Source: Hyphomicrobiales bacterium (GTDB lineage Bacteria > Pseudomonadota > Alphaproteobacteria > Rhizobiales > Devosiaceae). From it: a stretch of 64,000 nucleotides of DNA. The stretch spans positions 62,001-126,000 of the forward strand of contig SEEL01000006.1 in the NCBI GenBank assembly GCA_004144345.1, written 5' to 3'. Below the pieces are notes generated by a model that worked only from the letters and a program-made list of their open reading frames with translations, did not search any database and was not told the DNA's origin. Every line of letters begins with the position of its first letter. The stretch's first letter is position 1. The position numbers and the translations under genes are program-made. Positions 14,759 to 38,360 of this stretch are shown here, one piece after another.

Positions 14759-14835
14759 CGGAGTATAGCGCAGCCTGGTAGCGCACCTGCTTCGGGAGCA
14801 GGGGGTCGAGTGTTCGAATCACTCTACTCCGACCA
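14759..14835 (+). tRNA. tRNA-Pro (anticodon CGG)
   Basis: A 77-nt cloverleaf with CCA encoded: acceptor CGGAGTA/TACTCCG, anticodon arm CCTGC-TTCGGGA-GCAGG with anticodon CGG, and T-arm GAGTG-TTCGAAT-CACTC. CGG reads CCG, giving proline. Its 3' end is repeated at 38333-38357 (see the repeat entries). Confidence 0.95.
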
Positions 14836-14836
14836 A
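14812..14836 (+). repeat. Left copy of 25-bp direct repeat (3' end of tRNA-Pro), att-like
   Basis: The repeat starts at GTTCGAATCAC in the T-arm, ends with the encoded CCA plus one A, and matches 38333-38357 at 24 of 25 bases in the same orientation. Tyrosine integrases commonly use such tRNA 3' ends as attB. Whether this one was used is inference. Confidence 0.6.
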
Positions 14837-14840
14837 TCAA

Positions 14841-14870
14841 CCCCGGCGTCTCACGGCGCCGGGGTTTTTT
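14841..14870 (+). terminator. Rho-independent terminator after tRNA-Pro
   Basis: CCCCGGCG (14841-14848) pairs with CGCCGGGG (14857-14864), followed by six T. The same hairpin, loop included, recurs at 25694-25722. Confidence 0.85.
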
Positions 14871-14922
14871 CATATCTGGCCGCAAGCCGCCGTGCTCTCC
14901 GGACTTGTTTAGCGCGCGCAGC

Positions 14923-15711
14923 CTAGCGACCGCCGCCGGCTAGCTTGCGGGTGCTCGACTTCCGGGGACTTGCCTTCTTTGTTGCCGTCTCCAGGGCCAG
15001 ATGCGCCCCGACATCTGAGGCAAGCAGCGACTGAAGTTGGCGGACGATCTGGGCCGCGTGTTCCGTGGCAAGGCGATCCGCAAGATTGGCGTCGCGTTTG
15101 ACGATGGCGGCGATCATGGCAGCGTGCTGTTGGACATATTCGCGCGGCAGGTGATCCTGGAAGGTACGGTAGTAGATGCGAAACAGGCGTCGTCCTTCAT
15201 CTAGCAGGCGGCCGAACAGGTCGGTGTAGTAGCGGTTGCGACCGGCCTCGGCGATGGCGACGTGCAGGTCGCGGCTAGACGCGATCATGGCTAGCGCATC
15301 CGCACTCTCGACGGCGGCATCGAACAGGTCCGCGTGGCCGCGGATCACTTCCACATCTAGGTCGACATGGTGCATCGCGGCGAGACGGTGCGTAACGCGG
15401 TACATGAGCGTGAGCGTATCGAAATAGACCGGCAGTTCCGCGAAATTGATCGGCGACACGATGGTGTTGCGGTTGGGCAACGTCGTGACGAACCGCTCAT
15501 TCGCCAGCCGCATCAGCGCCTCGCGCACAGGGGTACGAGACAGATGGAAGCGTTGCGAGAGCCGCGTTTCATCAAGAGGCTCGCCGGGCTCCAGCACCAT
15601 CTCGATGATCTCCTGGCGGAGAACCGTGTAGACACGCTGGACGCCCGATCCGCGGGCGGGAAGAGATTTCTTGGCGGGCTTGGCGGGCTTGGCGGGTTTA
15701 CTGGCTGCCAT
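14923..15711 (-). CDS. GntR-family transcriptional regulator, FCD type, with Lys/Ala/Pro-rich tail
   Basis: A 262-residue GntR regulator. The winged helix has the recognition segment LSQRFHLSRTPVREALMRL (about residues 50-70). The all-helical FCD effector domain follows, with the expected Asp/His ligand pattern (SRDLHVAIAEA and two histidines in the last helices). The ATG at 15711 follows GAGGAAG. Odd are the basic N-terminal repeat KPAKPAKPAKK, encoded by three near-identical DNA repeats, and a basic C-terminal tail. It is divergent from the M24 peptidase gene and probably controls it and the downstream importer through the TGTCGACA sites. Confidence 0.88.
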   Translation of the reverse strand: MAASKPAKPAKPAKKSLPARGSGVQRVYTVLRQEIIEMVLEPGEPLDETRLSQRFHLSRTPVREALMRLANERFVTTLPNRNTIVSPINFAELPVYFDTLTLMYRVTHRLAAMHHVDLDVEVIRGHADLFDAAVESADALAMIASSRDLHVAIAEAGRNRYYTDLFGRLLDEGRRLFRIYYRTFQDHLPREYVQQHAAMIAAIVKRDANLADRLATEHAAQIVRQLQSLLASDVGAHLALETATKKASPRKSSTRKLAGGGR

Positions 15712-15948
15712 AGTCTTCCTCGATTGCTGCGCCGGCTGCAACTTACCGGCTGCACACCGGCTCCCATCCGGGAGTCCGTCTGACGCAAATAGTGCGCAAG
15801 TCGTAATTCTGGCGATCGCTGCCGATCCCGCGAGCTCGTCGCTCGATCGGCCGGGGCCTGCCCGCGTCGGGCGACGACCATCCCGATGCCTCTATCGCGA
15901 ATGACCGGCGCAATGAAGACCCTTGCGGGTGCGCGGCTGCTGTATATA

Positions 15949-15967
15949 GTTTGTCGACATTGTTACG
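15949..15967. promoter_or_regulatory. Candidate GntR operator upstream of the M24 peptidase
   Basis: TGTCGACA at 15952-15959 is a perfect 8-bp palindrome inside TTGTCGACATTGTTAC, 25-32 bp before the peptidase ATG. The same TGTCGACA followed by WTGT is found at 17853 before the binding-protein gene. FCD-type GntR sites are often short dyads of this kind. Confidence 0.45.
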
Positions 15968-15983
15968 CTTTCCCCGAGGGCTC

Positions 15984-17774
15984 ATGTCGCAAACGCACCA
16001 CCAGCGTCTCACCGCACTTCGCTCGCACTTCGACAGTTGGGACGTCGATGCCGTGCTGGTGCCGCGCTACGACGAGCACCAAGGCGAGTACTGCGCGCCG
16101 CACGACGAGCGACTGGCGTTCCTCACCGGCTTTTCCGGCTCGGCCGGCCTCTGTCTCGTGCTGCGCGAGCGCGCGATCTTATTCGTCGATGGCCGCTACC
16201 AAGTGCAAGTGCGGCAGGAGACGGACGCCGGCAGCTTTGAGATCGCGCATCTGATCGACGATCCGGTGGAGCGCTGGCTGGAGCGGGAAGCGCCGGCCGG
16301 TGTGCGCCTCGGACTGAACGCCATGCTAATCCCAGCCAGCCTCCACGAGCGGATCGAGCGCAGCGTAAGCCGCCTCGGTGGCGGGGTGACTGCACTGGCC
16401 GGCGATCCTGTCGATGCAATCTGGCCGGAGCAGCCGGAGAAGCCAACTGGCCGCATCACACCAATGCCAGTTGAGCGTGCTGGCGAAAGTTCTGCGGACA
16501 AACGCGCGCGTGTCGCGAAGCGGCTGCGCGAGATGCGAGCCAACTTGCTGATCGAAGCGCAGCCGGACAACATCGCATGGCTGCTCAATGTGCGGGGATC
16601 GGACGTCGCCTTCACCACGGCACCGCAATCCTTCCTGCTGATCGATGATGGCGGCGCGGTCGAGTGGTTCGTCGACACGCGCAAGCTGCCGAATGATCGC
16701 AGCGACCTCGAGCTCGACGATGTGGCGCTGGCCGATCCGTCAACGCTGCTGGCTCGCATCGCAGAGCGCGCCCGCGGGCAGACGGTGGTGGTCGATCCTG
16801 ACCAAGCATCGGTGGCGCTGTCGCTCGCCGCGAAGGACGGTGGCGGCCGGGTCGACGCACGGATGTCACCGATCACCCTGATCAAGGCGCACAAGAACCC
16901 AATCGAACTGCAGGGCTTTCGCGACTGCCACATCGAGGATGGTGCGGCGTGGACAAACTTCAACGCGTGGCTGCTACACGAGGCACCGGCGCGCGCTGCG
17001 GCCGGGCACCCTGTCCGCGAGATGGAGGTCGAGGAGCAGATGCTGGCCTTTCGCGCCCGCTCGCCGTCATTCATCGGCGCCAGCTTCCATCCGATTTCGG
17101 CCGCCGCGTCCAACGCGGCGATGTGCCACTATTCCTCGAGCCCCGCTACCAATGCAGCGCTCACCGAGCACGCGCCGTTCCTCCTCGATTCGGGCGGGCA
17201 CTATCTGTCGGGCACCACAGACGCGACGCGGACCATTGCACTGGGCCCGCAGAGCGAGACAGTGTGCACGGCCTATACCGCCGTCCTCAAGGGCTTCCTC
17301 GCCATGCTGATGCTGCGCTTCCCGGCGGGCACCTATGGGCATCAGATCGACGCTTTTGCGCGCCAGGCGCTGTGGGATCTCGGGCTCGACTTCGACCACG
17401 GAACCGGCCACGGCGTGGGTCACGTCGGGGCCATCCACGAGGGCCCGCATCGCATCACGCGGAACCCTAATCCGTTCCGCATCGAGGCCGGCATCGTGCT
17501 CACAGTAGAACCCGGTTATTATCGCACAGACGCGTTCGGTATTCGCATCGAGAACCAGGTGGAAGCGGTCGACGATGGCGGTGGTTTCTTGCGGCTCGAG
17601 AGCCTGACGCAGATCCCCATCGCCACCGACATGATCGATGTCGCGGCCCTTACCCGAGCGGAAATCGCCTTCCTCGATCGCTACCACGCAGGGGTGAGAG
17701 AGCATCTGCTCGGTCGCGTTTTGCCGGAAGCGACGAGCTACCTGCTGGCGGCCACCGCGCCGCTTTCGACCTAA
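15984..17774 (+). CDS. M24-family aminopeptidase P (Xaa-Pro aminopeptidase)
   Basis: A 596-residue aminopeptidase P with two creatinase-type N-terminal domains, then the M24 pita-bread domain from about residue 310 and a short C-terminal extension. The metal ligands are present: Asp in LLDSGG and TTDATRT, His in HGTGHGVGHVGAIHEGP, Glu in TVEPGYY and RIENQVEAV. It has no signal peptide, so it is cytoplasmic. ATG at 15984 is preferred over an in-frame TTG at 15951 that lies inside the putative operator. It cleaves N-terminal residues preceding proline; with a peptide-type importer downstream it may process imported peptides. Confidence 0.92.
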   Translation: MSQTHHQRLTALRSHFDSWDVDAVLVPRYDEHQGEYCAPHDERLAFLTGFSGSAGLCLVLRERAILFVDGRYQVQVRQETDAGSFEIAHLIDDPVERWLEREAPAGVRLGLNAMLIPASLHERIERSVSRLGGGVTALAGDPVDAIWPEQPEKPTGRITPMPVERAGESSADKRARVAKRLREMRANLLIEAQPDNIAWLLNVRGSDVAFTTAPQSFLLIDDGGAVEWFVDTRKLPNDRSDLELDDVALADPSTLLARIAERARGQTVVVDPDQASVALSLAAKDGGGRVDARMSPITLIKAHKNPIELQGFRDCHIEDGAAWTNFNAWLLHEAPARAAAGHPVREMEVEEQMLAFRARSPSFIGASFHPISAAASNAAMCHYSSSPATNAALTEHAPFLLDSGGHYLSGTTDATRTIALGPQSETVCTAYTAVLKGFLAMLMLRFPAGTYGHQIDAFARQALWDLGLDFDHGTGHGVGHVGAIHEGPHRITRNPNPFRIEAGIVLTVEPGYYRTDAFGIRIENQVEAVDDGGGFLRLESLTQIPIATDMIDVAALTRAEIAFLDRYHAGVREHLLGRVLPEATSYLLAATAPLST

Positions 17775-17823
17775 CGCGACACCCGAGTCCAAAGTCGAAT
17801 GTGCTTGGCCATATACGCCCTCA

Positions 17824-17873
17824 AGACAACGTTGTCTGACTGCTGGACATTCTGTCGACAATGTGTCCACAAT
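17824..17873. promoter_or_regulatory. Operator/promoter region of the module B1 importer
   Basis: AGACAACGTTGTCT (17824-17837) is a perfect 14-bp palindrome. TGTCGACA (17853-17860), followed by ATGTGTCCACAAT, repeats the core seen at 15952. Both lie in the 211-bp gap between the peptidase and the binding-protein gene, 113-162 bp before the latter. This suggests separate control of the importer by the GntR regulator. Confidence 0.45.
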
Positions 17874-17985
17874 CCTCTCGCTGCCCCGGAAGCGCCCGTT
17901 ACCGTGACAGCCCGAAGTGATTGAAAACCGGTGCCGTCGTTCGGCGAACCGGGATCCGTACAAGCATGGTCAGGGGAGCATCATC

Positions 17986-19563
17986 ATGCAGATATCAGGA
18001 CATTACACTTTGCTACGCGGCGTCGCCTTCACGGCACTCGCGGCCGCCGGCATCGCGCTTAGCGCACCGGCTCTTGCCCAGGACAGCGAACTCAACTGGG
18101 GTATCCGCGACACACCGCGGGCCCTGTTCGCGCCCTACAACTACTCCGGCGACACGATGATCATGTCGCTCATCCAGGACCAGTTGCTCACCTATGACGC
18201 CGACGGCGCACTGGTGTCCGACGTGGCCACCTCGTGGGAAGCGCCCGATCCGCTGACCTATGTCTACACCATCCGCAACGATACGAAATTCTCGGATGGC
18301 TCGCCCGTTACCGTCGACGACGTCGTCTATTCGCTCAATCTCAACCTCGACGCGGCGGTGGGCTCGCAACTCGCTTCGCTGTACGGCACCGTTGAATCCA
18401 TCACCGGCGAGGGCGACAAGGTTACCGTCAAGCTCAAGCAGGCCAACTCTACGTGGAAGTTCATTCCAGCGAGCATCGGCGGCTATATCTGGAAGAAGGC
18501 GTCGGTCGAAGCTAACCTCGCCAACTACGGCAGCCCGCAGGTCCTGCCCATCGGTTCGGGTCCCTATATGGTGTCCGAATGGGTGGCGGATTCGCACGTC
18601 ACGCTGACGCGCAACCCGCATTATCATGGCGATGCGCCGCAGTTCGAGACGGTGACGTTCCGCGTCCTGCCCGACGACCAGACGCGCTTCCTTGCCATGC
18701 AGCAGGGCGATATCGACGGCACCTTCGTCGTTCCGACCACCGCGCTCGCGCAGTGGAAGGCCGTTGCCGACGTCGTCGACTTTCCGTCCTACATCTGGCG
18801 CGGTTTCACGCTCGACTTCGAGACACCGCCCCTGGACGACATCCATGTCCGCCGCGCGTTGAACTATGCCGTGGATAAGGAAGCGCTGGCGGCCGGCCTG
18901 TTTGCGGGCCTTGCCGTCCCCTCCTCGACGGTCAACGATCCGGGCATCTTCAGCGGCGCCCTGCCGCAGGATGAAGTCGACGCCGCCTACGCCAAGGTCG
19001 TGTCGTTCCCTTATGACGTTGCTAAGGCGAAGGAAGAAATGGCGCAGTCGGCCTATCCCGACGGCTTTGCCATCACCCTCAACGTGCCTGAGGACTCGGC
19101 CACCATCGGCCAGCTTTCGCAGGTCGTGAAGGCCAACTGGGCGGAGATCGGTGTCGATATGACGCTGAACCTGATGCCGGGCGGCCCGCGCTTCCAGATC
19201 ATCCTCGACCACGAGCCCGGGCTCGGCGTGCAGGTGATCGGCAACCGTCCGGACGCGCCCGATCCGGCACAGATGGCCGAGCAGTACTTCTCGATCGCCC
19301 AGGCGGCAAAGAACGGCAACAACTCGTCGAACCTCAAGGACCCGGCGATCGACGCCGTGATCGCCAAGGCGCTCGAGGCGACCGATCCAGCCGAGACGGC
19401 GCGTCACGTGCTCGAAGCGCAGATCATGGCCTCCGAACAGGTGCCGTTCGTCTCGCTGATCTGGCAGCGCTCGGTCGTCGCCCTGAAGCAGGGTTGGACC
19501 ATGGACGGGCTTCGTCCGTCCTATGACATGTCGGTCTGGGTCGACCGGCTGAACGTCAAATAA
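17986..19563 (+). CDS. ABC transporter substrate-binding protein, family 5 (SBP_bac_5)
   Basis: A 525-residue family 5 binding protein with a Sec signal peptide (hydrophobic core near residues 10-28, cleavage after APALA before QDSE). The ATG at 17986 follows GGGGAG. The family 5 landmark RDTPRALFAPYNYSGD lies close to the mature N-terminus, and the chain ends SVWVDRLNVK. It feeds the DppB/DppC/fused-ATPase importer immediately downstream. The GH95 enzyme at the end of the operon raises the possibility that the ligand is a fucose- or galactose-containing oligosaccharide rather than a peptide. Confidence 0.92.
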   Translation: MQISGHYTLLRGVAFTALAAAGIALSAPALAQDSELNWGIRDTPRALFAPYNYSGDTMIMSLIQDQLLTYDADGALVSDVATSWEAPDPLTYVYTIRNDTKFSDGSPVTVDDVVYSLNLNLDAAVGSQLASLYGTVESITGEGDKVTVKLKQANSTWKFIPASIGGYIWKKASVEANLANYGSPQVLPIGSGPYMVSEWVADSHVTLTRNPHYHGDAPQFETVTFRVLPDDQTRFLAMQQGDIDGTFVVPTTALAQWKAVADVVDFPSYIWRGFTLDFETPPLDDIHVRRALNYAVDKEALAAGLFAGLAVPSSTVNDPGIFSGALPQDEVDAAYAKVVSFPYDVAKAKEEMAQSAYPDGFAITLNVPEDSATIGQLSQVVKANWAEIGVDMTLNLMPGGPRFQIILDHEPGLGVQVIGNRPDAPDPAQMAEQYFSIAQAAKNGNNSSNLKDPAIDAVIAKALEATDPAETARHVLEAQIMASEQVPFVSLIWQRSVVALKQGWTMDGLRPSYDMSVWVDRLNVK

Positions 19564-19575
19564 GGCATAAATAAC

Positions 19576-19589
19576 GCCGCCGGCGCGGC
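19576..19589 (+). promoter_or_regulatory. Short stem-loop between binding-protein and permease genes
   Basis: GCCGC-CGGC-GCGGC forms a 5-bp stem directly after the binding-protein stop. Weak alone, but it sits where the cluster 1 and B2 binding-protein genes also have hairpins. Confidence 0.35.
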
Positions 19590-19619
19590 ACTGGGTATCG
19601 GGCTAACTTACGGACTATT

Positions 19620-20594
19620 GTGGACATGGACACACGTGGGATTGCCTCTTATCTGCTGCGCCGGCTGCTGCTGCTGATTCCGCTCGCCGTCGGCGTTTCT
19701 ATCGTCGTCTTTCTTCTTGCCTCGATGATCCCCGGCGGCCCGATCGCGGCGCTACTGGCCGGCAAGTCGACCGACACCGCCACCATCGAGGCGATGCGGC
19801 AGCGCTACAATCTCGACCTTCCGCTCTATGAGCAGTACCTGCTGTGGATGCGCGGCGTCCTGCAGGGCAACCTCGGTACCTCGATTTTTACCGGACAGCC
19901 CGTCAGCGCCGCCATTCTCGAGCGCATCTGGCTAACCCTCGCGCTCAATCTTAGCGGCGTTCTAATGTGCCTCCTGATCGGCGGGATGCTCGGCATCGCT
20001 GCGGCGGTCAACCGCGGTTCCTTCTTCGATCGGGCTATCGTTTCCGTGTCGCTCTTCCTGTCGAGCGCGCCGTCCTTCGTACTGGCCATCGCTGGGCTCT
20101 ATCTGCTGGCATATAAGCTTGGCTGGTTCCCCCTCTTCGGCATCGGCAAGGGCGGCTTCCTCGAAACGCTGCGCCACCTCGCTCTGCCGGCGTTGGTCGT
20201 CTCCATCAGCCCGCTGGGCTTCGTCACCAAGATGGTGCGTGCCTCGATGATCGACCAGCTCGACCAGGACTATGTCACCTTCGCGCGGGCCCGCGGTGTG
20301 CCCTACTCGCGCGTGCTGTTCGTGCATGCTCTGCGCAATGCGCTGATCCCCATTCTCACCGCCGCCGGCCTGTTGTTCGTCGGACTGCTGACCGGCACCG
20401 TGTTCGTCGAGACGGTGTTCGGCCTGCCCGGCATGGGACGCCTGCTGATCACCGCCGTGCAATTCAACGACTTCCCGGTGATGCAGGGCGTGGTGCTGTT
20501 CGTTGCGGCGTGGATCGTGCTGCTCAACCTAATCATCGACGCGCTCTATACGATCGTCGACCCGCGCGTCGCGTTTGCGAGGGCCGCGCAATGA
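19620..20594 (+). CDS. Peptide-type ABC transporter permease (DppB-like)
   Basis: A 324-residue DppB/OppB-type permease with N-terminal YLLRRLLLLIPLAVGVSIVVF, LGTSIFTGQPVSAAI in the conserved periplasmic region, about six membrane spans, and an EAA loop near TFARARGVPYSR. The start is GTG at 19620 (GGA 5 nt upstream) or ATG at 19626. Its stop overlaps the next ATG as ATGA. Confidence 0.92.
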   Translation: MDMDTRGIASYLLRRLLLLIPLAVGVSIVVFLLASMIPGGPIAALLAGKSTDTATIEAMRQRYNLDLPLYEQYLLWMRGVLQGNLGTSIFTGQPVSAAILERIWLTLALNLSGVLMCLLIGGMLGIAAAVNRGSFFDRAIVSVSLFLSSAPSFVLAIAGLYLLAYKLGWFPLFGIGKGGFLETLRHLALPALVVSISPLGFVTKMVRASMIDQLDQDYVTFARARGVPYSRVLFVHALRNALIPILTAAGLLFVGLLTGTVFVETVFGLPGMGRLLITAVQFNDFPVMQGVVLFVAAWIVLLNLIIDALYTIVDPRVAFARAAQ

Positions 20595-21439
20595 CCGCCA
20601 TATCCGCACCCGCACCGCGCCGCCGCCTCCTCGACTGGCGCGCTATCCCGCTTGGTGTCGCGCTGCCGTTGCTCTACGTCCTGCTCGTGCTGGTGCTGAC
20701 AGTGTTCGGCAACTTCATGATGCCCTACTCGCCGGCCGCGCAAGATCTCTACCGCATCTCCGCCCCGCCCTCCGCCGAGCACTGGTTCGGCACCGACGAT
20801 CTGGGGCGCGATGTGCTGTCCCGGCTGATCGCCGGCGCCCGCACCGCCATCGTCGGGCCGCTGGTCGTTGCCCTTACTGGCTTCATCGGCTCGAGCCTCA
20901 TCGGAATCTATGCCGGCTACAGCGGCGGCACCGCCGACAACGCCATCATGCGGGTGGTCGATTTCGTTATCGCCATGCCGAGTCTGCTCATCGCCATCGT
21001 TCTGGTCTCGGTGCTCGGGGGCGGTTACTGGCTGGCCATCGCCGTACTCAGCCTGCTGAACCTGCCCGGCGACATCCGCATCGTTCGCGGCGCCGCGCTC
21101 AAGGAGCGCAACCTCGCCTACATCGAAGCCGCTCGCGCCATCGGTGTGCCGAAGTGGCGCATCATGTACTACCACATCCTGCCCAACATCATGGCACTGC
21201 AGGCATCCAACTTCGCCATCAACGTCGCCGGCTCACTGGTTGCGCTTGCCGGTCTCGCCTTCCTCGGCCTCGGCTCCGAGCTGGGCACGCCGGAATGGGG
21301 TTCGATGCTGGCCGACGGCCAGGCCCTGCTGTTCTCTAATCCTGCCGCGGCGCTCGCGCCCGCCGGCGCTATCATCCTGCTCGCGCTATCGGTCAATCTG
21401 GTCGGCGACTGGGCCTATGACAGGTACACCGGCCGATGA
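20591..21439 (+). CDS. Peptide-type ABC transporter permease (DppC-like)
   Basis: A 282-residue permease with the DppC hallmark HWFGTDDLGRDVLSRLIAGAR, about six membrane spans and an EAA loop at EAARAIGVPKWRIMYYH. The start is fixed by the 4-bp overlap with the DppB-like gene; it overlaps the ATPase gene by 4 bp at the other end. Confidence 0.93.
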   Translation: MTAISAPAPRRRLLDWRAIPLGVALPLLYVLLVLVLTVFGNFMMPYSPAAQDLYRISAPPSAEHWFGTDDLGRDVLSRLIAGARTAIVGPLVVALTGFIGSSLIGIYAGYSGGTADNAIMRVVDFVIAMPSLLIAIVLVSVLGGGYWLAIAVLSLLNLPGDIRIVRGAALKERNLAYIEAARAIGVPKWRIMYYHILPNIMALQASNFAINVAGSLVALAGLAFLGLGSELGTPEWGSMLADGQALLFSNPAAALAPAGAIILLALSVNLVGDWAYDRYTGR

Positions 21440-25613: not shown

Positions 25614-25693
25614 CCGGGCCCGCGCCACCTGCAAAGCGGGCTGTCTGCTCTGGGCCAAGCCGCCACACAGCTGCAGACTAGAGCGAGCATCAT

Positions 25694-29545: not shown

Positions 29546-29574
29546 GGAATACTTCGCGTTTTGGATCGTTGGAG

Positions 29575-30654
29575 TCAGGCGTGCCGCAGCGCGGCGATCG
29601 TCGTCACGAGTTCATCGGCCGACGGCCGGTCGAGCGCGCCGAAACTGTATCTGGTGTGGAACGAGGCTCCCGGCGCGATCTGGACCAGTTGCCCACCCCG
29701 CCGCGCAGCGGCCAGACCATCGGCCGGCGCGGTGGCGGGCAGCACCAGTCCAAGCGCATCCTGATTGGGCCCACGTGTCATCCAGCGCACCGCATAGGGC
29801 AACTCGGATGGCCTGTAGCTGACGAAGTCACCGCCGCCATCGGGATGCCGCTGCAGCACATGCGTAAAGCCATCGGCGCCGGCCGCCACCTGCATGGTCA
29901 GCACCAGCTCAGGCAGCACGGCGACACCCGCCTCCACCACCCGATGCGACGGCGGATCGGCGCTGACGCGCTCGTGGTAGTCTCGTGCCGCCGCAGGTGC
30001 GTCGTCCTGCCCTCGCACAGCGATGCTGGCGTCATCGGCCGCGTCATGCAGCGTCGCGCCGTCCACCGGCAGGAAATTGATATGCGCGAGATACATAAAG
30101 GGTAGCAGCGTTCCCGCCTGGTTTTCCACCACCAGGTCGACATCGATCGATGTGCCGGCTTCACGCAGGCGGAGGCGCGGCCGCGCCACGAAGTCATGCG
30201 AGAAGGCCAGCACATCGCGGCCCTCACCCATGATATCGACGAACGCCCCGTCGGCATCATGGCCGCACTCGAGCCAGGCCTCTGTCAATGGCAGGGCTGG
30301 CAACTCACCGTGCAGCGGATGCCGGTCCTCGGGTCCCGGATTGCCCATCGCCGTACCACCACAATGCAGCAGCAACGCGCCATAGCTGCGCAAATAGTCG
30401 CGCGTCGCCTGCGGCTCGTCGAACATCGATCGCATGGTCAGGCGCCGGCCGTGGAACTGCGCGTCCCACACCTGCTGCCCCTGGAACGGCAGGACGACAA
30501 TCTCGCCCACCGCATTGGCGATCCTGAGGCCAGCCACGCCGGAGCGATAGCGAAATGCCGTGGCGGTGAAGGCGCCGAAGCGCGCCACAACAATTGGGAC
30601 CGGCGTGAACAGTGACGAATCGAGCCTGAAGGCGGCGGCCGCTTTCGACACCAT
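29575..30654 (-). CDS. DUF4432/aldose 1-epimerase-like protein
   Basis: A 359-residue all-beta protein resembling the DUF4432 group of galactose-mutarotase-like proteins: HGELPALPLTEAWLE, a central AHINFLPVDGA and C-terminal RWMTRGPNQDALGLVLPAT. Start ATG at 30654 lies 1 bp after the amidohydrolase stop; longer readings only traverse that gene. Members of this fold interconvert sugar anomers or act on sugar-like rings. Its presence in an amino-acid-like catabolic operon suggests the substrate carries a sugar or cyclic moiety. Confidence 0.75.
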   Translation of the reverse strand: MVSKAAAAFRLDSSLFTPVPIVVARFGAFTATAFRYRSGVAGLRIANAVGEIVVLPFQGQQVWDAQFHGRRLTMRSMFDEPQATRDYLRSYGALLLHCGGTAMGNPGPEDRHPLHGELPALPLTEAWLECGHDADGAFVDIMGEGRDVLAFSHDFVARPRLRLREAGTSIDVDLVVENQAGTLLPFMYLAHINFLPVDGATLHDAADDASIAVRGQDDAPAAARDYHERVSADPPSHRVVEAGVAVLPELVLTMQVAAGADGFTHVLQRHPDGGGDFVSYRPSELPYAVRWMTRGPNQDALGLVLPATAPADGLAAARRGGQLVQIAPGASFHTRYSFGALDRPSADELVTTIAALRHA

Positions 30655-30655
30655 G

Positions 30656-32143
30656 CTAACCCCGCCGCCGCATCGAGCGGCCGATGTCGTTCGCTGCCAC
30701 GACATGTCCCATGCGCGACAGCAGGTCGCGCGAAGCTTCCCGCACCCGTGCGTAGATGGCGTGTTCGTCGAGCTGGGCAAAACGACCCGCATCGAGCACC
30801 ACGCTGCCATTGATGATGACCGTGTGGACCGATTTTGAACGCGACGCGTAGAACAGGTTTCGGATCAGATTGGTGCTCGGCACCATCTCCGGCCGGTTGA
30901 GCGTGTGGATGACGATGTCGGCCCGCTTGCCGGCTTCGAGCGAGCCGATCTCATGTTCAAGCCCTACAGCCCGGGCCCCTGCCCGCGTTGCCATCTGCAG
31001 GCCGTCTTCGGCGATGAGGTAGGTCCGGTCCATGTGCACGTCGCGTGCCGCCATGACCGCCAGGTTTGCCTGCCGCCACAAATCGAAATCATTCGACCAA
31101 TTGGGGGAATCCGACCCAAGGCCGACATTGGCCCCACGCCGCCACAGTTCGGCATGCCGCCCATGCAATGAGCTCCCATGTCCCCACATCATCGACGCCG
31201 CCGGCGCCCAGGCTATCGACGCGCCGCGGTCGATCAGCGCCTCGCACTCGGCATCCGTGAGATGATTGGCATGGCCGAAGGTCACATTGCGATCGAGAAA
31301 ACCCGTCTCATGCAGATGCACCAACGGGTCCTTGCCAAAGCGCTGCCGATCCGCCTCGGTATCGGCCGGGCTGTATGACTGGTGGATGTTCAGCGTCACC
31401 TTCGCCGCATCGGCGCAGGCTTTTGCCTCCATCATAAGGTCTTCGCTCGCCGTCCCCAGACCGAGTACAGCCACGTGGCCACGGACCAACACGTCGGGAT
31501 CGGCATTGCGCTTGGCCTGGCGCCCTAGCGTCGCCATCGCCTCGGCCTTCGTCTTGGGCGCCCGCGCCAGTTCGGTGTGCAGTCGTGCCTGTGTCGCGCA
31601 ACTTGTGCAGCCGTCATCCTGCTCGAGCTTGCCCTGCGAAAACCCCTGCGGCTGGTCCCAGATGAAGGCGTCACCAAGGATGGCGCGGATGCCAACTTCG
31701 TTAGCGGCTTTTGCGCCCATCTCGGGCGTCAGGATGGTGCCGGCCTCCATGAAACAGGTCGAACCGTTCCGTACCATCTCCATCGAGGCCAGCAGTACCG
31801 ACAGATACTCGTCCTCGTCCGTCACCGTGTTGTAGAAATGTCCTTCGAACGTGTCGAACGAGTCACTCTCGACCAGCTGGTCCGGCAACACGCTGCGAAA
31901 CAGATGATACGACGCATGCACGTGGCACTCGACAAAACCCGGATGCACGGGCGCGCCCTCGGCGTCGATCTCACGCTTGCCGCGGTAGCGGCTCGCGACG
32001 TCCCGATCCTCGCCCACGGCGAGGATCCGCCCGTCATCGCCAACGGCAATGGCGCCATCCGTGATGATCGTCCCGTCATCATCCATGGTGATGATGTAGC
32101 CGTGCCTAACCACCAGCTCCGCCAGGATCTTGCTGTCGCTCAT
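30656..32143 (-). CDS. Chlorohydrolase/deaminase-like amidohydrolase (AtzA/SsnA type)
   Basis: A 495-residue amidohydrolase of the cytosine-deaminase-like superfamily. Metal ligands: HPGFVECHVHAS (HxH, about residue 75), NIHQS, FGHANHL and the Asp of GLGSDSPNWSND. The C-terminal beta-sandwich segment GSLEAGKRADIVIH is intact. Members remove amino or chloro groups from rings or hydrolyse cyclic amides. It follows the importer ATPase by 1 bp and is the first catabolic enzyme of the operon, so it probably opens or deaminates the imported compound. Confidence 0.88.
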   Translation of the reverse strand: MSDSKILAELVVRHGYIITMDDDGTIITDGAIAVGDDGRILAVGEDRDVASRYRGKREIDAEGAPVHPGFVECHVHASYHLFRSVLPDQLVESDSFDTFEGHFYNTVTDEDEYLSVLLASMEMVRNGSTCFMEAGTILTPEMGAKAANEVGIRAILGDAFIWDQPQGFSQGKLEQDDGCTSCATQARLHTELARAPKTKAEAMATLGRQAKRNADPDVLVRGHVAVLGLGTASEDLMMEAKACADAAKVTLNIHQSYSPADTEADRQRFGKDPLVHLHETGFLDRNVTFGHANHLTDAECEALIDRGASIAWAPAASMMWGHGSSLHGRHAELWRRGANVGLGSDSPNWSNDFDLWRQANLAVMAARDVHMDRTYLIAEDGLQMATRAGARAVGLEHEIGSLEAGKRADIVIHTLNRPEMVPSTNLIRNLFYASRSKSVHTVIINGSVVLDAGRFAQLDEHAIYARVREASRDLLSRMGHVVAANDIGRSMRRRG

Positions 32144-32144
32144 C

Positions 32145-33224
32145 TCAACTCTCCCGCAGCAGATTGGCAGCGCCCGCCGCCCAGCTCAGTGTGACGTCGT
32201 TACCGATGCCGAGCCCGTCGGCCTCCTCGTCCCGGCACTCGACCCACACGGAAACGCTGCCTGCCACCACGACCCGCAGCCGGATACTGTTGCCCTGGTA
32301 GACGATCTCGGCGATGGCGCCCGCGATCTGGCGATCTGCCGAGGCGCCAGCGCCCCGACCGACACGGATCGCCTCCGGGCGTATCGACAGCGCCACGCGC
32401 TGCCCCAGCTGTAGTCCCGGCCCGATCGCAGCGTGCAGCGTGCCCACTTCGGTGTCTAGCGTCACGCCGTCGGCAGACAGCCCCGACACGTGCCCCCGCA
32501 GCAGATTGGTGGCGCCAACAAAGTCGGACACGAAGATCGAGCTGGGCCGCCGGTAGATGTCGCGCGGCGTGCCATACTGCTCGATACGACCGGCATTCAT
32601 GATGGCGATGCGGTCCGACATCACCAGCGCCTCGGTCTGGTCATGCGTCACGAACACGAAAGTTGCGCCCAGCCGCTTCTGGATCGCGCGCAGTTCCAGC
32701 TGCATCTGCTGACGCAGCTTCAGGTCCAGCGCCGACAGCGGTTCGTCGAGCAGTAGCACCCGCGGCTCCGCCGCCAGCGCGCGCGCCAGCGCCACACGCT
32801 GCGCCTGCCCGCCGCTCAGCTGCGCCGGATCCCGATCGCCAAGCGCTTCGAGCCGCACCAGTGCAAGCATCTCATCGACGCGGGCATTGATCTGGGCGCG
32901 CTGCACGCCGCGCAGCCGCAGGCCATAGCCGACATTCTCCCGCACGCTCATGTGCGGGAACAGGGCGCCACGCTGGAACACCATATTGGTCGGGCGTCGC
33001 TCCGGCAGGCGGTTGGTCAAATCCTCGCCATAGATCAATACTTGCCCGCGCGACGGTCGATCGAAGCCGGAGATAATCCGCAACAGGGTCGACTTGCCGC
33101 AACCGCTCGCGCCGAGCAGCGACACGAACTCACCGTCGGCGATCTTGAAGTCGATCTGCTCAAGCGCGGTCATCGACCCGAAGCGCTTGCTCAGCCCAAC
33201 CACCTCGACGGCATGACTGGTCAC
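32145..33224 (-). CDS. Spermidine/putrescine-type ABC transporter ATP-binding protein (PotA-like)
   Basis: A 359-residue ATPase with Walker A GASGCGKS, QLSGGQAQRVALARAL signature, LLLDEPLSALD Walker B and a C-terminal TOBE domain (LSIRPEAIRVG). GTG at 33224 overlaps the TAG of the permease gene by one base. With the two permeases and the PotD-like binding protein it forms a complete polyamine/opine-type importer. Confidence 0.92.
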   Translation of the reverse strand: MTSHAVEVVGLSKRFGSMTALEQIDFKIADGEFVSLLGASGCGKSTLLRIISGFDRPSRGQVLIYGEDLTNRLPERRPTNMVFQRGALFPHMSVRENVGYGLRLRGVQRAQINARVDEMLALVRLEALGDRDPAQLSGGQAQRVALARALAAEPRVLLLDEPLSALDLKLRQQMQLELRAIQKRLGATFVFVTHDQTEALVMSDRIAIMNAGRIEQYGTPRDIYRRPSSIFVSDFVGATNLLRGHVSGLSADGVTLDTEVGTLHAAIGPGLQLGQRVALSIRPEAIRVGRGAGASADRQIAGAIAEIVYQGNSIRLRVVVAGSVSVWVECRDEEADGLGIGNDVTLSWAAGAANLLRES

Positions 33225-34012
33225 TATGAGTTCCTCTTGTTGAGCAGATTTGAACCGATCACCAGGCAGGTCAGCAGCACCAGCAGGAAGGTCGCGATCG
33301 CATTGACCGAGGGATCGATGCCGCGTCGCATCAACCCCCACACCAGAGTCGGCACCGTTTGCTGGCTGCCGATGTTGAACCAGGTGATGACGAATTCATC
33401 GAGCGATAGCGCTGCCGCCAGCAGTGCCGCACCAACAACAGATGGGCGGATAAGCGGTAATGTGATGTCGCGGAAGGCCTGGAAGCGAGACGCGCCCAGA
33501 TCGCGCGCGGCCTCGAGGATCGTGAAGTCGAAACTCTCGAGCCGGGAGTTCATCGTGAGGATGACGAAAGGCAGGCTCACCAGCACATGACCGACAGCGG
33601 CGCCAGTCAGTCCTTGCGGCAACCCGATGGTGCGGAAGAACACAGCCAGTGCGATGCCGATCACCAGCAGGGGCACGATCGCCGGCAGCATGCTGGCCGA
33701 CAACAGCGCGTCGCGCCACCGCCGGTTGCGCAGCGTTACCAGGCCATAGGCAAAGGCCGCCCCCGCAACACCGCCGCCCACAGCCGACAGCAGCGCAAGG
33801 ATTGCCGAATTCTGCAGCGCCATCGGAATGAGCGGATCGGAAAACGCCCGCGCGTACCACGCCAGCGTGAGCCCCTCGACGGGCAGGCTGAGCCGTGGCG
33901 ACGTGGTGAAGGAGAAGAACACGATCACGATGATCGGCGCGTAGAGGTAGAACAGCACCAGTGCCACAAACAGGCCGGGCAGCAGCCGCGACTTCACCAT
34001 CTCGTCACCCAT
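33224..34012 (-). CDS. ABC transporter permease (PotC-like)
   Basis: A 262-residue permease of about six membrane spans with the EAA loop ILEAARDLGASRFQAF. ATG at 34012 overlaps the PotB-like gene by 19 bp; ATG at 34000 is an alternative. It is the second channel subunit of the module B2 importer. Confidence 0.9.
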   Translation of the reverse strand: MGDEMVKSRLLPGLFVALVLFYLYAPIIVIVFFSFTTSPRLSLPVEGLTLAWYARAFSDPLIPMALQNSAILALLSAVGGGVAGAAFAYGLVTLRNRRWRDALLSASMLPAIVPLLVIGIALAVFFRTIGLPQGLTGAAVGHVLVSLPFVILTMNSRLESFDFTILEAARDLGASRFQAFRDITLPLIRPSVVGAALLAAALSLDEFVITWFNIGSQQTVPTLVWGLMRRGIDPSVNAIATFLLVLLTCLVIGSNLLNKRNS

Positions 34013-34848
34013 CGGACGACCTGCGTGATGGCGACATAAAGCAACAGCGACACCCCCACGACGATGAACGCCATGGCCGCACCGAGCGGCCAGTTGGTGC
34101 CCGTACCCCGAAACTGGTCGGCGATCATGTTGCCGATCATGACGCTCTGGGTGCCTCCCACCAGCGTGGGCGTGACATAGTCACCTGCGGCCAGCAGGAA
34201 CGCGAAGGCGAACGCGGTGCGAACACCCGGCATCACCATCGGCACCAATATTGTGCGCAGCAGATGGAAGCGGTTGGCGCCCAGATCACGCGCCGCTTCG
34301 ATATGGTCACGCGGCACATTGAGCATTGCTGAATAGAGCGGCAGCACCGCCATCGGCAGCAACAGCCCGACCAGCGTGACCACCACCGAGAACTGGCTGT
34401 AGATCAGGAATTCGAGCGGCTCCTCGATCAGCCCGAGCCATTGCAGCGCCGAATTGAGCAGCCCCTGCTTCCCCAGGATCGTGCGCCACGCATAGATGCG
34501 CACAAGGTAGCCACTGAACAGCGACAGCATCACCAGTTGCAGGATCAACTGGCCACGCCGCTCGAACACGAAGCGCATGATGTAGGCAAGTGTGAAGGCC
34601 ACCGGCACGACTATCGCCGCCGCCCCGAGTCCCACGCCGATCGTACGCAGCAGCACACCGCGATACAGGTCGGACTCGATAACCTTCTGGTAGTTGGCGA
34701 AGGTGAAATCGGGGATCAGCACAAAGCCCTGGGCGCGCCACAAGCTGATCACCAGTAGGCTCAGCATCGGCACGCCGAAGAACAGAAAGTAAAACAGGCC
34801 GGCCGGCAGCAGGGGCGCGATGCCGCCCCCCGGCGCACGATCTGTCAT
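33994..34848 (-). CDS. ABC transporter permease (PotB-like)
   Basis: A permease of about 284 residues with six predicted spans and the EAA loop IEAARDLGANRFHLLRT. The start is uncertain: ATG at 34848 leads into APLLPAGLFYFLFFGVP, while TTG at 34869 has GGAAAG close by. The longer reading to 34953 runs into the repeated regulatory element and is rejected. First gene of the permease operon, about 70 nt downstream of a possible TTGACT/AAAATC promoter. Confidence 0.88.
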   Translation of the reverse strand: MTDRAPGGGIAPLLPAGLFYFLFFGVPMLSLLVISLWRAQGFVLIPDFTFANYQKVIESDLYRGVLLRTIGVGLGAAAIVVPVAFTLAYIMRFVFERRGQLILQLVMLSLFSGYLVRIYAWRTILGKQGLLNSALQWLGLIEEPLEFLIYSQFSVVVTLVGLLLPMAVLPLYSAMLNVPRDHIEAARDLGANRFHLLRTILVPMVMPGVRTAFAFAFLLAAGDYVTPTLVGGTQSVMIGNMIADQFRGTGTNWPLGAAMAFIVVGVSLLLYVAITQVVRWVTRW

Positions 34849-34933
34849 GGCATTCGAGCTGTTGCTCAAGGTCTTTCCACCGGCTCGATCGCTGCCGGAA
34901 TCGCCCGTACAGCGTGGTTGGGTCGATTTTCTT

Positions 34934-34970
34934 GGTTTTGTATATGAAGTCAAGAACTACTTATGAAACC
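34934..34970 (-). promoter_or_regulatory. Copy 1 of duplicated regulatory element, before the permease operon
   Basis: A 37-nt stretch whose central 28 bases (34940-34967) are identical to 37471-37498. Its ends GGTTT and AAACC are inverted, and TTCATA occurs twice on the minus strand. It includes, on the minus strand, TTGACT (34953-34948), 17 nt before AAAATC, a plausible promoter for potB. It overlaps the serine hydrolase stop codon. The divergent IclR protein at 37523 is the likely binder. Confidence 0.6.
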
Positions 34971-36145
34971 AAAGAGCTTTCTGTGCGCCGACGGATTTCG
35001 GGCAGCTCCCGCAGCGCCTCGATCAGGTTTTGCGCGCGCGGATCGGCTTCTTCCATCTGATTGCTGACGAAGGCGAAGCCCAGCCGCAAGCCCGGCTCGG
35101 CGAACGTCACCTGCCCACCTGCGCCATCATGGCCGAACCCCGCCGCTGTCAGATAACGCCGCGCCGGGGAATCGAGCTGGAAGCCCATGCCCCACGCCAT
35201 CCATGGCTCTGGTTCGTGAAACACGGGCGCGCCGCTGCTCTGCACCGCGGTGGCGCGCCGGATCGTCTCGTCATTGAGCAATCGCACGCCGCCGGTCTCC
35301 GTTACGGCAGCCGACCACGCCCGCGCCAGCGCCCGCGCATTTGAGATACCGCCCGCTCCGGGGATCTCCGCCGCCTGCAGCTGCGGATCGTTGAACCCGC
35401 CATCGGGGCTGGCCAGCGTGCGCGGGAGCGCGCCTCGCAGCGTCAGCCCGCGCTCTATCCATTCACTGGACTCATGCACGAAGTGTTCCGTGCCCTCGGC
35501 GAAACTGTGGCCCACACCGATATGCGCGACCCGCTCCTGCTGCGCACTCGGCAGGCCGATCCACATGTCCGCCTGCAGCGGCGCGGCAATCATGTCTGCC
35601 AGCAATTGGCCCACCCGCTTACCCGTCACGCGCCGCAGCACGTTGCCGATCAGCCAGCCATGCGTGATGAAATGATAGGAGTGTCCCTCGCCCGGCGCCC
35701 AGAGCGGCGCCTGCGCCGCCAGCAGCGCGACCATCGCGTCCCAGTCGACGATGTCGTCGACATCCAGCGCCACGGCCGGCGCCGACAGGCCGGCCCGATG
35801 CGACAGAAGATCCCTCACCAGAGTGTCTTGTTTGCCGGCCGCCGCGTATTCCGGCCAGTAGCGCGTGACGGGCGCGTCGTAGTCGAGCCGACCATCCTGC
35901 ACGAGCCGCGCCGCCAGCAGTGACATGAGGCCTTTGGTGCACGAAAAGATCACGCTGATCGTGCCTTCGTCCCAGGGGCGGCCGCTACGGATATCGGCAA
36001 CGCCGCCCCACAGATCGACCACCGGCGCGCCGTCCAGATAGACGCAGGCCGAGGCGCCGCCGTCATAGTACTCGACAATATCGGCAAAGACCGCCGCCAG
36101 TGGCTCAAAGCCCGGCGCTGCGCTGCCCGCGACCAATTCTGTCAT
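34961..36145 (-). CDS. Serine hydrolase, class C beta-lactamase/EstB family
   Basis: A 394-residue protein of the beta-lactamase (class C)/penicillin-binding-like serine hydrolase family. SCTKG gives the nucleophile SxxK, SYHF lies at the position of the second-site tyrosine, and FGHDGAGG provides the HxG-type third motif. There is no signal peptide, so it is probably a cytoplasmic esterase or amidase rather than an antibiotic resistance enzyme. ATG at 36145 follows GGGAGGG. It sits between the binding-protein gene and the permease genes; its TAA lies inside regulatory element copy 1. It may hydrolyse an ester or amide of the imported substrate. Confidence 0.85.
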   Translation of the reverse strand: MTELVAGSAAPGFEPLAAVFADIVEYYDGGASACVYLDGAPVVDLWGGVADIRSGRPWDEGTISVIFSCTKGLMSLLAARLVQDGRLDYDAPVTRYWPEYAAAGKQDTLVRDLLSHRAGLSAPAVALDVDDIVDWDAMVALLAAQAPLWAPGEGHSYHFITHGWLIGNVLRRVTGKRVGQLLADMIAAPLQADMWIGLPSAQQERVAHIGVGHSFAEGTEHFVHESSEWIERGLTLRGALPRTLASPDGGFNDPQLQAAEIPGAGGISNARALARAWSAAVTETGGVRLLNDETIRRATAVQSSGAPVFHEPEPWMAWGMGFQLDSPARRYLTAAGFGHDGAGGQVTFAEPGLRLGFAFVSNQMEEADPRAQNLIEALRELPEIRRRTESSLVS

Positions 36146-36167
36146 CGCGTGCCCTCCCGGCAAGAAG

Positions 36168-36196
36168 CTGCGGGCGAAGGGTTTCTCCGCCCGCAG
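36168..36196 (-). promoter_or_regulatory. Stem-loop after the module B2 binding-protein gene
   Basis: CTGCGGGCG (36168-36176) and CGCCCGCAG (36188-36196) form a perfect 9-bp stem with an 11-nt loop, 8 bp past the binding-protein stop. No U-run follows. It is the same position as the 10706 hairpin. Confidence 0.55.
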
Positions 36197-36203
36197 GATC
36201 GGC

Positions 36204-37385
36204 TTACGCGGCCTTGAACGTCTGCCAGGCCTCGATCCAGGCCGAGACGCCAACGATATCGCCATCGGCTTCCTGCGGCGGCAGCAGGCTCGCCTGGGTG
36301 CCAAGAATGCCACCACCCGGCTGCCGCACGTCGTCGTAGTTGTAGAGGACCTGCGCATCGGCGGTCAGCAGGTCGTAGGCAGCTTCCACCGTGCAGCCCG
36401 AGCCGAGTTCGGTGGCCAGCGCCGCGTTCGATTCCGCTGATGTCACATAGTCGATGAACGCGTAGGCATTATCGATATTGGGCGCGTCGACGGCGATCGC
36501 GTAGGCGTCCGACCAGAACAGCGTGTCGTCGATCTTGGGCGAGCCGGCGACCAGCGTTACGCCCTTCTCCTTGGCAATCACCAGCTGGTAGGCCCAGCCG
36601 CCGATGCCGATCGACGCATCGCCGCGGATGATCACGTCGGCCATGTCGCCGAAGCCAGTGCCCAGCGTAACGATGTTCGGCTTGATCGAGATCAGCGCTT
36701 CCAGCGCCTTGTCGAGTTCGGCTTGCGTCAGGCGGCCGAGGCCCTGGGCACCGGTCGACTTGGCGAACAGACAGATATTGCCGAACGGGTCGTCGAGCAG
36801 CACGAGCTCGCCCTTGAACTTCGGATCGGCAAAGTCGGTATAGCGATCCGGAACGCCTTCCCATTTCTCCGGATTCCAGACGCAGGGGCTGTTGCCCCAG
36901 ATCAGCGGCACGCCGTAGGTCTTGCCGTCACGAACCAGCCACGGGGCGTCCTTGAACGCCGGGAACAGGCCGCCGGCATTGGGGATGCGCGCCATGTCGA
37001 GTGGCAGGAACAGTTCCGTCCCCGCATCGAGCACGGTGCTCTGAAAATCCTTGTTGACCGAGAACAGATCGAGCGCGCCACGTCCGCCCGTCATGAAGCG
37101 GGTCAGCGGCTCGTCGGCCGAGGAGGTGAAGCTCGCATTCATCTGGATATTGTTGTCGCGCAGGAAGGGCCCCGCAACATTGGCGGCCTGCTCGCCATCA
37201 TATCCCAGAAAATTCAGCGGCCCGCCGAGTTTGCCATCAGCACCGCTTGCGCTTCCTGCGTTCAGCCCCAGCACGGTCAGCGTCGTCAATCCGGCTGCCC
37301 CCTGGATGAAACGGCGCCTGCTCATGTCTGCATTGAGCCGGGCGTCCAGCAACGTCCTCAACCTGTCGTCCACGTTCTTCTCCAT
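36204..37385 (-). CDS. Tat-exported spermidine/putrescine-type substrate-binding protein (PotD-like)
   Basis: A 393-residue binding protein with a twin-arginine signal, SRRRFIQGAAG about residues 21-31, preceded by an unusually long polar n-region. The mature part has LNFLGYDGEQA and a C-terminal SAWIEAWQTFKAA; the overall size and a WGNSPCVWNPEKW hinge-like segment fit PotD/family 1-6 type proteins of polyamine/opine importers. ATG at 37385 is preferred because longer readings enter the regulatory element. It is divergent from the IclR gene and heads the eleven-gene minus-strand run. Confidence 0.88.
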   Translation of the reverse strand: MEKNVDDRLRTLLDARLNADMSRRRFIQGAAGLTTLTVLGLNAGSASGADGKLGGPLNFLGYDGEQAANVAGPFLRDNNIQMNASFTSSADEPLTRFMTGGRGALDLFSVNKDFQSTVLDAGTELFLPLDMARIPNAGGLFPAFKDAPWLVRDGKTYGVPLIWGNSPCVWNPEKWEGVPDRYTDFADPKFKGELVLLDDPFGNICLFAKSTGAQGLGRLTQAELDKALEALISIKPNIVTLGTGFGDMADVIIRGDASIGIGGWAYQLVIAKEKGVTLVAGSPKIDDTLFWSDAYAIAVDAPNIDNAYAFIDYVTSAESNAALATELGSGCTVEAAYDLLTADAQVLYNYDDVRQPGGGILGTQASLLPPQEADGDIVGVSAWIEAWQTFKAA

Positions 37386-37464
37386 ATCAAGACTCTCGTC
37401 GAGAGCTCGTCTAGGTTTGCATCTCCTGTTGCCAGAGCTTGCCCCGGCATTGCGATTAGGGAGA

Positions 37465-37500
37465 GGTTTCGTATATGAAGTCAAGAACTACTTATGAACC
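37465..37500. promoter_or_regulatory. Copy 2 of duplicated regulatory element, iclR/binding-protein divergent promoter
   Basis: This is the partner of 34934-34970, with 28 identical central bases, and shares GGTTT at the left end. It lies 80 bp before the binding-protein ATG on one side and 22 bp before the IclR ATG on the other, a position suited to autorepression plus control of the transport operon. TTGACT on the minus strand (37484-37479) could be a -35 box, but its -10 partner is weak. Confidence 0.6.
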
Positions 37501-37522
37501 TCAACCCGAGGAAAGCCCCCTG

Positions 37523-38287
37523 ATGTCCAGCGATGAGCGAGCCACCTATTCGGCGCCGGCACTCGAGAAGGGTCTCGATATCCTCGAATTGCTCGCAGGC
37601 GCGGACGAACCGATGACCGCGCGCCAGATCGGCGAGCAGCTCGGTCGTTCCAAGAGCGAGATTTTTCGCATGGTGTATGTGCTGGTCGATCGCGGCTATC
37701 TGCATCGCGACGCCGCCACCGATCAGCTTTCGCTGAGCAACCGCCTGTTCGAACTCGGCATGCGTACGCCGCGTTCGCGTACCCTCGTCGCCGCCGCCCT
37801 ACCCCGCATGGAGCGGCTGAGCACGCTCATTGGCCATTCGAGCCACCTCGTCGTGGTCAGCCGGGGTGAGACCATCGTCGTCGCGAGCGCTACCGCGCGC
37901 GCCGAGTTCAATTTCTCGCTGCAGCTCGGCTACGGGAATCCGGCGGTCGATGCTGTGTCGGGTAAAACCATACTCGCCTTCCAGCCTGCCGAGCGCCGGG
38001 ACGCGATGATTACCCAGAGCATGACGTTGATGGCGAAGCCGCCCGCTCGCAAAGCCCTGATCAAGGAGCTCGATGGGATCGCGGATGACGGCTCCGTCAT
38101 TACCAACAGCCGTCATTTGGTGGGTGTGACCGACATCTGCGCGCCAATACTCGACCGCACGGGCCGCGCCCTCGGCAGCATCGTGGTCCCGTGCCTGCAA
38201 CGGGTGGGATCGCAGTGGGGCATGGAAGACATTCGCGACAAGCTCGTCGCCACCTGCCGCGATATCGCCGGCGAGCTCACCCCATAG
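37523..38287 (+). CDS. IclR-family transcriptional regulator
   Basis: A 254-residue IclR regulator with winged helix (MTARQIGEQLGRSKSEIFRM) and C-terminal effector domain (GVTDICAPILDRTGRALGSI). ATG at 37523 is chosen: GAGGAAAG precedes it, and the longer frame from 37475 begins inside the regulatory element. Divergent from the PotD-like gene; the duplicated element in front of both transport transcription units is its probable target. Confidence 0.9.
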   Translation: MSSDERATYSAPALEKGLDILELLAGADEPMTARQIGEQLGRSKSEIFRMVYVLVDRGYLHRDAATDQLSLSNRLFELGMRTPRSRTLVAAALPRMERLSTLIGHSSHLVVVSRGETIVVASATARAEFNFSLQLGYGNPAVDAVSGKTILAFQPAERRDAMITQSMTLMAKPPARKALIKELDGIADDGSVITNSRHLVGVTDICAPILDRTGRALGSIVVPCLQRVGSQWGMEDIRDKLVATCRDIAGELTP

Positions 38288-38332
38288 CTCCCGTCACTCC
38301 GGCGACTTCGTTAGCTGCTCTACCTTCACGGC

Positions 38333-38357
38333 GTTCGAATCACGCTACTCCGACCAA
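38333..38357 (+). repeat. Right copy of 25-bp direct repeat (tRNA-Pro 3' fragment), att-like
   Basis: Identical to 14812-14836 except one base (CACGCTACTCCG against CACTCTACTCCG). The bases 5' of it do not complete a T-stem or any other tRNA arm, so it is only a fragment, not a gene. Same orientation as the tRNA. Consistent with attR of an island, or with a decayed duplicate tRNA. Confidence 0.65.
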
Positions 38358-38360
38358 CAA

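Follow-up and report, generated by a model that had tools for sequence, protein, structure and literature searches.

The window analysed here, a 64,000-nucleotide stretch from a Hyphomicrobiales bacterium of the Devosiaceae (assembly GCA_004144345.1, contig SEEL01000006.1, positions 62,001-126,000 of the forward strand), very probably carries a composite genomic island that was inserted site-specifically at a transfer RNA (tRNA) gene, tRNA-Pro(CGG), that lacks an integrase and that comprises two catabolic modules; we put the probability of this reading at roughly 0.82. A preliminary description had taken the region for a single unit of 23.5 kb. It had missed both an inner repeat of the terminator behind the tRNA gene (T1) and the presence of the right-hand module alone in a sister species, and the island is apparently composite instead, with module 1 at 14870-25688 and module 2 at 25723-38332. 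Comparisons were made within a genus set of 19 genomes, consisting of the source genome (4.1 Mb in 132 contigs, with the window on contig C49) and 18 relatives numbered with a G, and within a set of 136 genomes of the family. tRNA genes were called with ARAGORN, and protein domains were assigned with Pfam to 20 reading frames, 19 of the island and the flanking bioY gene.

The outer borders are marked by a direct repeat of the tRNA 3′ end. The intact tRNA-Pro(CGG) gene, the insertion target on the left attachment side (attL), lies at 14759-14835 on the forward strand, and the 25-bp sequence GTTCGAATCACTCTACTCCGACCAA, which runs from its T loop to its 3′ end plus one base, occupies 14812-14836. 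The same sequence recurs in the same orientation at 38333-38357, where a single T-to-G mismatch leaves 24 of 25 bases identical. No third copy was found in the window at up to three mismatches, nor did any appear in 100 shuffles, and a 24-base pattern searched at up to two mismatches in the whole source genome matched these two sites and no others. The repeat, already reported in the preliminary description, is real and beyond chance. The right copy, a displaced tRNA-Pro 3′ end on the right attachment side (attR), is outside any tRNA called by ARAGORN, which likewise detected no tRNA array; the sole other tRNA gene in the window is a tRNA-Gln at 14549-14623. Five alignments, all chosen after viewing the sequence, were controlled with 500 shuffles each. 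A longer tRNA remnant ahead of the right fragment is undetectable, as 390 of 500 shuffles align as well. The 45 bases ahead of this fragment resemble the end of a sulfotransferase gene in relative G006 (matched by 10 of 500 shuffles), a result that is one of the five tests and is not relied on, and their alignment to the region behind the G006 IclR gene was equalled by 265 of 500 shuffles.

The state before insertion is preserved in relatives. A tRNA 3′-end match and a BioY match are present in all 19 genus genomes, and the state of the locus is unreadable in several relatives, where the two matches are on separate contigs or differently oriented. The site is empty in three of the 18 relatives (G003, G007 and G016): the bioY match lies 61-72 bp from the tRNA-Pro 3′ end, which is the direct joining to bioY that the preliminary description had suggested looking for. 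The sequence there reads CCGACCA followed by ACA(A/G)AAAGGCCGG, and the form with A is the sequence found behind the right fragment of the window. A similar direct tRNA-Pro/bioY arrangement, AAACAAAGGCCGG, occurs in G104, a member of another genus. Across the family, the junction pattern at up to two mismatches is matched in seven genomes (the source genome, G003, G007, G016, G104, G118 and G119); the last two, from other genera and with two mismatches, are not counted as empty because their bioY lies about 3 kb away. In the window, the right fragment is followed by a junction and terminator of the ACAAAAAGGCCGG type (38357-38386, forward strand) and then by bioY (38411-39025, reverse strand), as in the empty sites, whereas the intact tRNA-Pro is followed by a ATCAACCCCGG-type terminator. 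Because the empty-site junctions match the right side and not the left, the right fragment and its flank represent the former junction of tRNA and bioY, and the tRNA on the left has received a new 3′ flank. These empty sites with a matching flank support the site-specific integration at a tRNA that had been proposed earlier.

The base that distinguishes the right copy is also present in the tRNA genes of G007 and G011, while the other base is found in the tRNA of G006 and in the fragment of G012, a genome in which the fragment alone was matched, without an intact tRNA-Pro match; it is therefore unusable for dating. In a bioY tree the window groups with G006 (support 93/83), with G012 next (89/85), and the empty sites fall in separate parts. 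Only one of the 17 inner branches carries the star for good support, G119 from another genus lies on a long branch within the genus, and the rows do not include G002, so the tree provides no firm order of junction states.

The same tRNA gene has been used by other elements. Displaced tRNA-Pro 3′ fragments of 45-49 bases, starting in the anticodon arm, are present in five of the 18 relatives (G001, G002, G012, G014 and G018), and ARAGORN calls no tRNA at these five loci. The stretches ahead of them (at loci L003, L015, L017, L023 and L071) are similar, with CCGGAA in four and CGGAA at the printed edge in the fifth, and are probably the end that members of one element family have in common. A tyrosine integrase gene of 391 amino acids lies about 3 kb downstream of tRNA-Pro in G002; G018 encodes another downstream of its tRNA-Pro, with a 265-residue frame 69% identical to the C-terminal part of the former. 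Remnants of the same integrase family follow tRNA-Pro in G013 and G001, and a weaker trace of 22 residues was seen in G014 in local search only. The site is thus a hot spot, given displaced fragments in five of the 18 relatives and an integrase gene or remnant downstream in at least four.

The window itself holds no such gene, as the preliminary description had noted. Contig C49 has no match to PF00589 (tyrosine integrase) or PF00239 (resolvase), and the seven PF00589 and three PF00239 matches in the source genome are all on other contigs. Searches with the integrase found at tRNA-Pro in the genus gave no remnant in the window (hits only at expectation values (E) of 3.7 to 7.4) and no relative in the source genome at E up to 1e-5. 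Neither the conjugation genes nor the integrase expected of an integrative and conjugative element appear among the 19 island frames and bioY, the best Pfam matches being enzyme, transport and regulatory families only. Decayed islands often lack an integrase. The claim of insertion at the tRNA rests accordingly on the far-border repeat and the empty sites and not on an integrase.

The evidence for two parts begins with the terminator. T1, of the ATCAACCCCGG type that is the commonest behind tRNA-Pro in the genus, directly follows the tRNA (14836-14869, forward strand), and a second copy identical at 33 of 34 positions lies at 25689-25722 on the same strand, at the border between the modules. 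The 29-base core of T1 has only these two matches in the source genome at up to three mismatches. The second copy sits between the end of a GH95 gene (25613) and the end of an amidohydrolase gene (25799) and separates two oppositely oriented operons; of 200 shuffles, 199 fold less well than the sequence surrounding it. Judged as an inner attachment copy of a tandem island, it duplicates the terminator part (33/34), whereas the tRNA part is undetectable (445/500 shuffles). Survival of the terminator while the tRNA piece vanished could be owed to a role as shared terminator. A comparison of the sequences immediately past the two T1 copies was equalled by 39 of 500 shuffles. The T1 hairpin is distinct from its counterparts in G006 and G012, the closest relatives, and is one base from the hairpin behind the tRNA-Pro of G013, so a source outside this lineage is possible.

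Module 2 also exists on its own. On contig C18 of G006, a 12.4-kb operon is collinear with 25845-38283 of the window (78.2% identity over 12.5 kb) and lies on the 3′ side of a tRNA-Met gene, with an internal stop in its DUF4432 gene. One end of this copy is a few bases from a displaced tRNA-Met 3′ fragment, beyond which follow an integrase fragment, a phage-type lysozyme gene and then the intact tRNA-Met. The tRNA-Met to backbone distance is 26.5 kb in G006 versus about 1.5 kb in G011. In sister species, the same gene set therefore follows two different tRNA genes. The preliminary description had held that finding the same 23.5 kb elsewhere without the repeat would speak against integration; in G006 this applies to the right half only (25845-38283), and the whole 23.5 kb was not found in this way. 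The solitary occurrence of module 2 marks the island as composite and does not undo the insertion at tRNA-Pro. As a separate observation, the 5 kb between the intact tRNA-Met and the displaced fragment (G006:C18:69138-74304, L108) are a phage-like remnant with the integrase fragment, the lysozyme and an Stf0 sulfotransferase.

How module 2 came to occupy both sites bears on one alternative, which is compatible with the favoured composite island and to which we assign slightly less than an even chance: the module may be ancestral, predating the split from G006, and have relocated between tRNA-Met and tRNA-Pro rather than having been acquired twice. Its 78.2% identity to the G006 copy is like that of the backbone (77.9% in the bioY region and 75.7-85.3% in the tRNA-Met neighbourhood), and its DUF4432 protein, matched at E up to 1e-40 in eight of the 136 family genomes including the source, is close only in G006 (75%), with the other six at most 49% identical. 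Two acquisitions from related donors would look alike, however, and the flank on the G006 side has no long match in the source genome (longest 409 bases, 71%). No match was obtained on plasmids for the one module 2 protein searched there (E up to 1e-60).

We propose the following history for the composite island. The starting point would be a tRNA-Pro running straight into bioY via one shared terminator, the state seen in relatives. Judging from the two flanks, site-specific integration of an element at the 3′ portion of the tRNA would have followed; the element would have brought a new 3′ end together with the T1 terminator and displaced the former 25-bp 3′ end and junction to 38333-38386. 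Module 2 would have been present at about the time of the G006 split or been drawn from a shared pool. Since the second T1 copy parts the modules, module 1 was most likely inserted later, between the tRNA and an existing module 2, leaving the older terminator behind. The recombinase genes, absent today, would have been lost afterwards, so that the island would be fixed at present, barring action in trans by an integrase encoded elsewhere.

A simpler history, in which the 23.5 kb arrived whole with both operons and the internal terminator, pre-assembled at a donor tRNA-Pro, seems rather improbable. It would account for the single outer tRNA repeat pair and for the hairpin common to both T1 copies, which has a near-identical counterpart (one base off) behind the tRNA-Pro of G013 and so possibly came from outside. 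Against this, G006 has module 2 without a match to the GH95 protein of module 1 at E up to 1e-60, and the T1 hairpin is unlike that of either closest relative, G006 or G012.

Several observations weigh against the composite island inserted at tRNA-Pro as favoured here. No empty site and no second tRNA 3′-end match exist in G006, the closest relative, which carries an SH3 protein and a sulfotransferase between its tRNA-Pro and bioY. Its tRNA-Met insert is deduced from comparison with a single genome, G011; in G017 the distance is about 11.4 kb, and in G004 the backbone lies across the tRNA, on its opposite side. A tRNA remnant is undetectable ahead of the second T1 copy, where 445 of 500 shuffles equal or surpass the alignment, so recombination in the tRNA itself is at most a putative route of entry for module 1. 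The fragment in the window is 25 bp long and starts at the T loop, unlike the 45-49 bp fragments elsewhere in the genus that start in the anticodon arm, and therefore the integrase of the relatives need not have acted here. Integrases are classed by the sublocation of insertion within the tRNA gene, a classification to which both PMC9897764 and PMC3146451 refer, and on that basis the T-loop start may point to a different integrase. The base composition, finally, sets module 1 little apart from its surroundings: G+C content at third codon positions is 0.818 in the flanks (41 frames), 0.812 in module 1 (7) and 0.768 in module 2 (12), and pooled codon distances are 0.063 for module 1 and 0.094 for module 2, with some spurious frames taken in by the automatic gene choice. 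Module 1 thus resembles the flanks in both respects and module 2 deviates only slightly. The comparison of composition inside and outside that the preliminary description had recommended yields no separation from the flanks by G+C content and a slight deviation of module 2, which is weak evidence either way.

It is very unlikely that site-specific integration played no part, with short duplications of the tRNA 3′ end and terminator and with operons collecting, through homologous or illegitimate recombination, in an intergenic region that tolerates insertions, because, even though the contig has no PF00589 match and the inner repeat starts right after the tRNA without a detectable tRNA piece, the right copy has the empty-site downstream junction, as expected of a displaced half of the original attachment site (attB), and the same tRNA has integrases and displaced fragments in relatives. 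As a more speculative extension, to which we give a slimmer chance still, catabolic cassettes without recombinases, such as module 2, might be moved in trans between different tRNA 3′ ends (tRNA-Met in G006, tRNA-Pro here); for module 1, the patch of recombination or homology would have been the tRNA terminator and not the tRNA body.

The arrangement is of a kind already known, namely tandem islands behind an RNA gene and composite islands at tRNA genes. In Dehalococcoides, tandem genomic islands lie behind one RNA gene, ssrA (PMC3146451), and as here the islands are reported to lie side by side with repeated 3′ ends (20 bp in that system), metabolic cargo, insertion in the T-loop region and an integration module in only part of the islands. 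That system differs in its 28 aligned repeats and its 16 islands that keep an integration module with the serine recombinase DsiB (PMC3146451), whereas the island in the window has no recombinase and an inner border made of a terminator copy, not of a piece of the RNA gene. Two islands joined at a tRNA gene are likewise described for CGI48 at tRNA-Trp of Shewanella putrefaciens, in which CGI48 and its inner island, unlike the present case with no integrase found, were shown to excise with the help of integrase and excisionase (PMC8978831). Cargo between attachment-like repeats without an integrase of its own also recalls cis-mobilizable elements and accretion, reviewed in PMC5704250 and defined in part in PMC3146451, any movement in trans being hypothetical in the present case. 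Among tRNA fragments left by integration, the repeats of one published example also differ by 1 bp, but its fragment measures 44 bp as opposed to 25 bp here, where ARAGORN calls no tRNA (PMC9897764). Less usual in the present case are the completeness of the comparative record and the marking of the inner border by a terminator copy instead of a tRNA piece. It is a well-resolved case of ordinary catabolic operons piling up behind a tRNA gene, in which one genus offers unoccupied sites, integrases both intact and degraded, displaced tRNA fragments and, for one module, a sister copy at another tRNA, and it suggests that repeated tRNA terminators can expose inner borders of composite islands that would be missed by searches for tRNA fragments alone.

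The gene content agrees with the accessory catabolic modules with their own regulators and importers described previously, in that there are two gene sets with GntR and IclR regulators and ATP-binding cassette (ABC) importers. By Pfam assignment, module 1 encodes a GntR/FCD regulator (14923-15741, reverse strand) and, on the forward strand, an M24 peptidase with creatinase-type N-terminal domains (15951-17774), a peptide-type ABC importer composed of an SBP_bac_5 protein, two permeases and a fused double ATPase (17917-23289), and a GH95 glycoside hydrolase (23286-25613). Matches to the GH95 protein at E up to 1e-60 occur in 38 of the 136 family genomes, the source included, and the best besides its own are near-full-length matches with 45% identity and one partial match with 47%, so that on protein similarity it appears to have no close relative in the family. 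The best 80 matches listed in representative genomes are mostly from Paenibacillus and other Bacillota (43-50%); with Paenibacillus-type homologues the identity of the protein reaches 50% in its best segment, marginally above the 45% (partial 47%) seen within the family. A tblastn comparison of the 19 island proteins with 94 loci (80 GH95 loci with flanks of up to 10 kb and 14 stretches, six of these chosen for GH95) revealed, at E up to 1e-25, no second module 1 gene next to GH95. Of the 45 loci richest in matches, six have, beside GH95, a match to the module 2 ATPase only, and the loci outside these 45 can have at most one match each.

Outside the island, the right flank is syntenic with relatives. 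The left flank beyond tRNA-Gln (1-14500) has no long DNA match to the stretches from G003, G006, G007 and G016, with short matches to G006 only, and may thus be variable too.

Module 2 encodes on the reverse strand an Amidohydro_2 protein, a Gfo/Idh oxidoreductase, a PALP dehydratase, an AstE/AspA-type deacylase and a DUF4432 protein (25799-30810, Pfam), followed by an amidohydrolase, an ABC importer (ATPase, two permeases and an SBP_bac_8 solute-binding protein) and a beta-lactamase-fold hydrolase (30656-37484), both groups being collinear in G006. An IclR regulator (37475-38287, forward strand, Pfam) completes the module, and DNA similarity to G006 stops within its gene at 38283. The PALP dehydratase and the deacylase are adjacent at 27570-29545, and both score below curated NCBIfam cut-offs. 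The sole match of the deacylase is to the ectoine DoeB/EutE family (279.6 versus 402.7 bits). The dehydratase has matches in many dehydratase families, the highest-scoring being a serine/threonine dehydratase subfamily (306.9 versus a cut-off of 331), and scores lower against EutB (205-217 versus about 413). On these protein matches, the two enzymes may belong to a pathway whose substrate is an ectoine-like or acylated amino compound. A 34-bp direct repeat (33/34 identical) is located at 34934-34967, before a permease gene, and at 37465-37498, at the divergent start of the IclR and solute-binding protein genes. Both copies are present in G006, and the repeat is possibly a regulator-binding site or a scar of the insertion of the solute-binding protein and beta-lactamase-fold genes.

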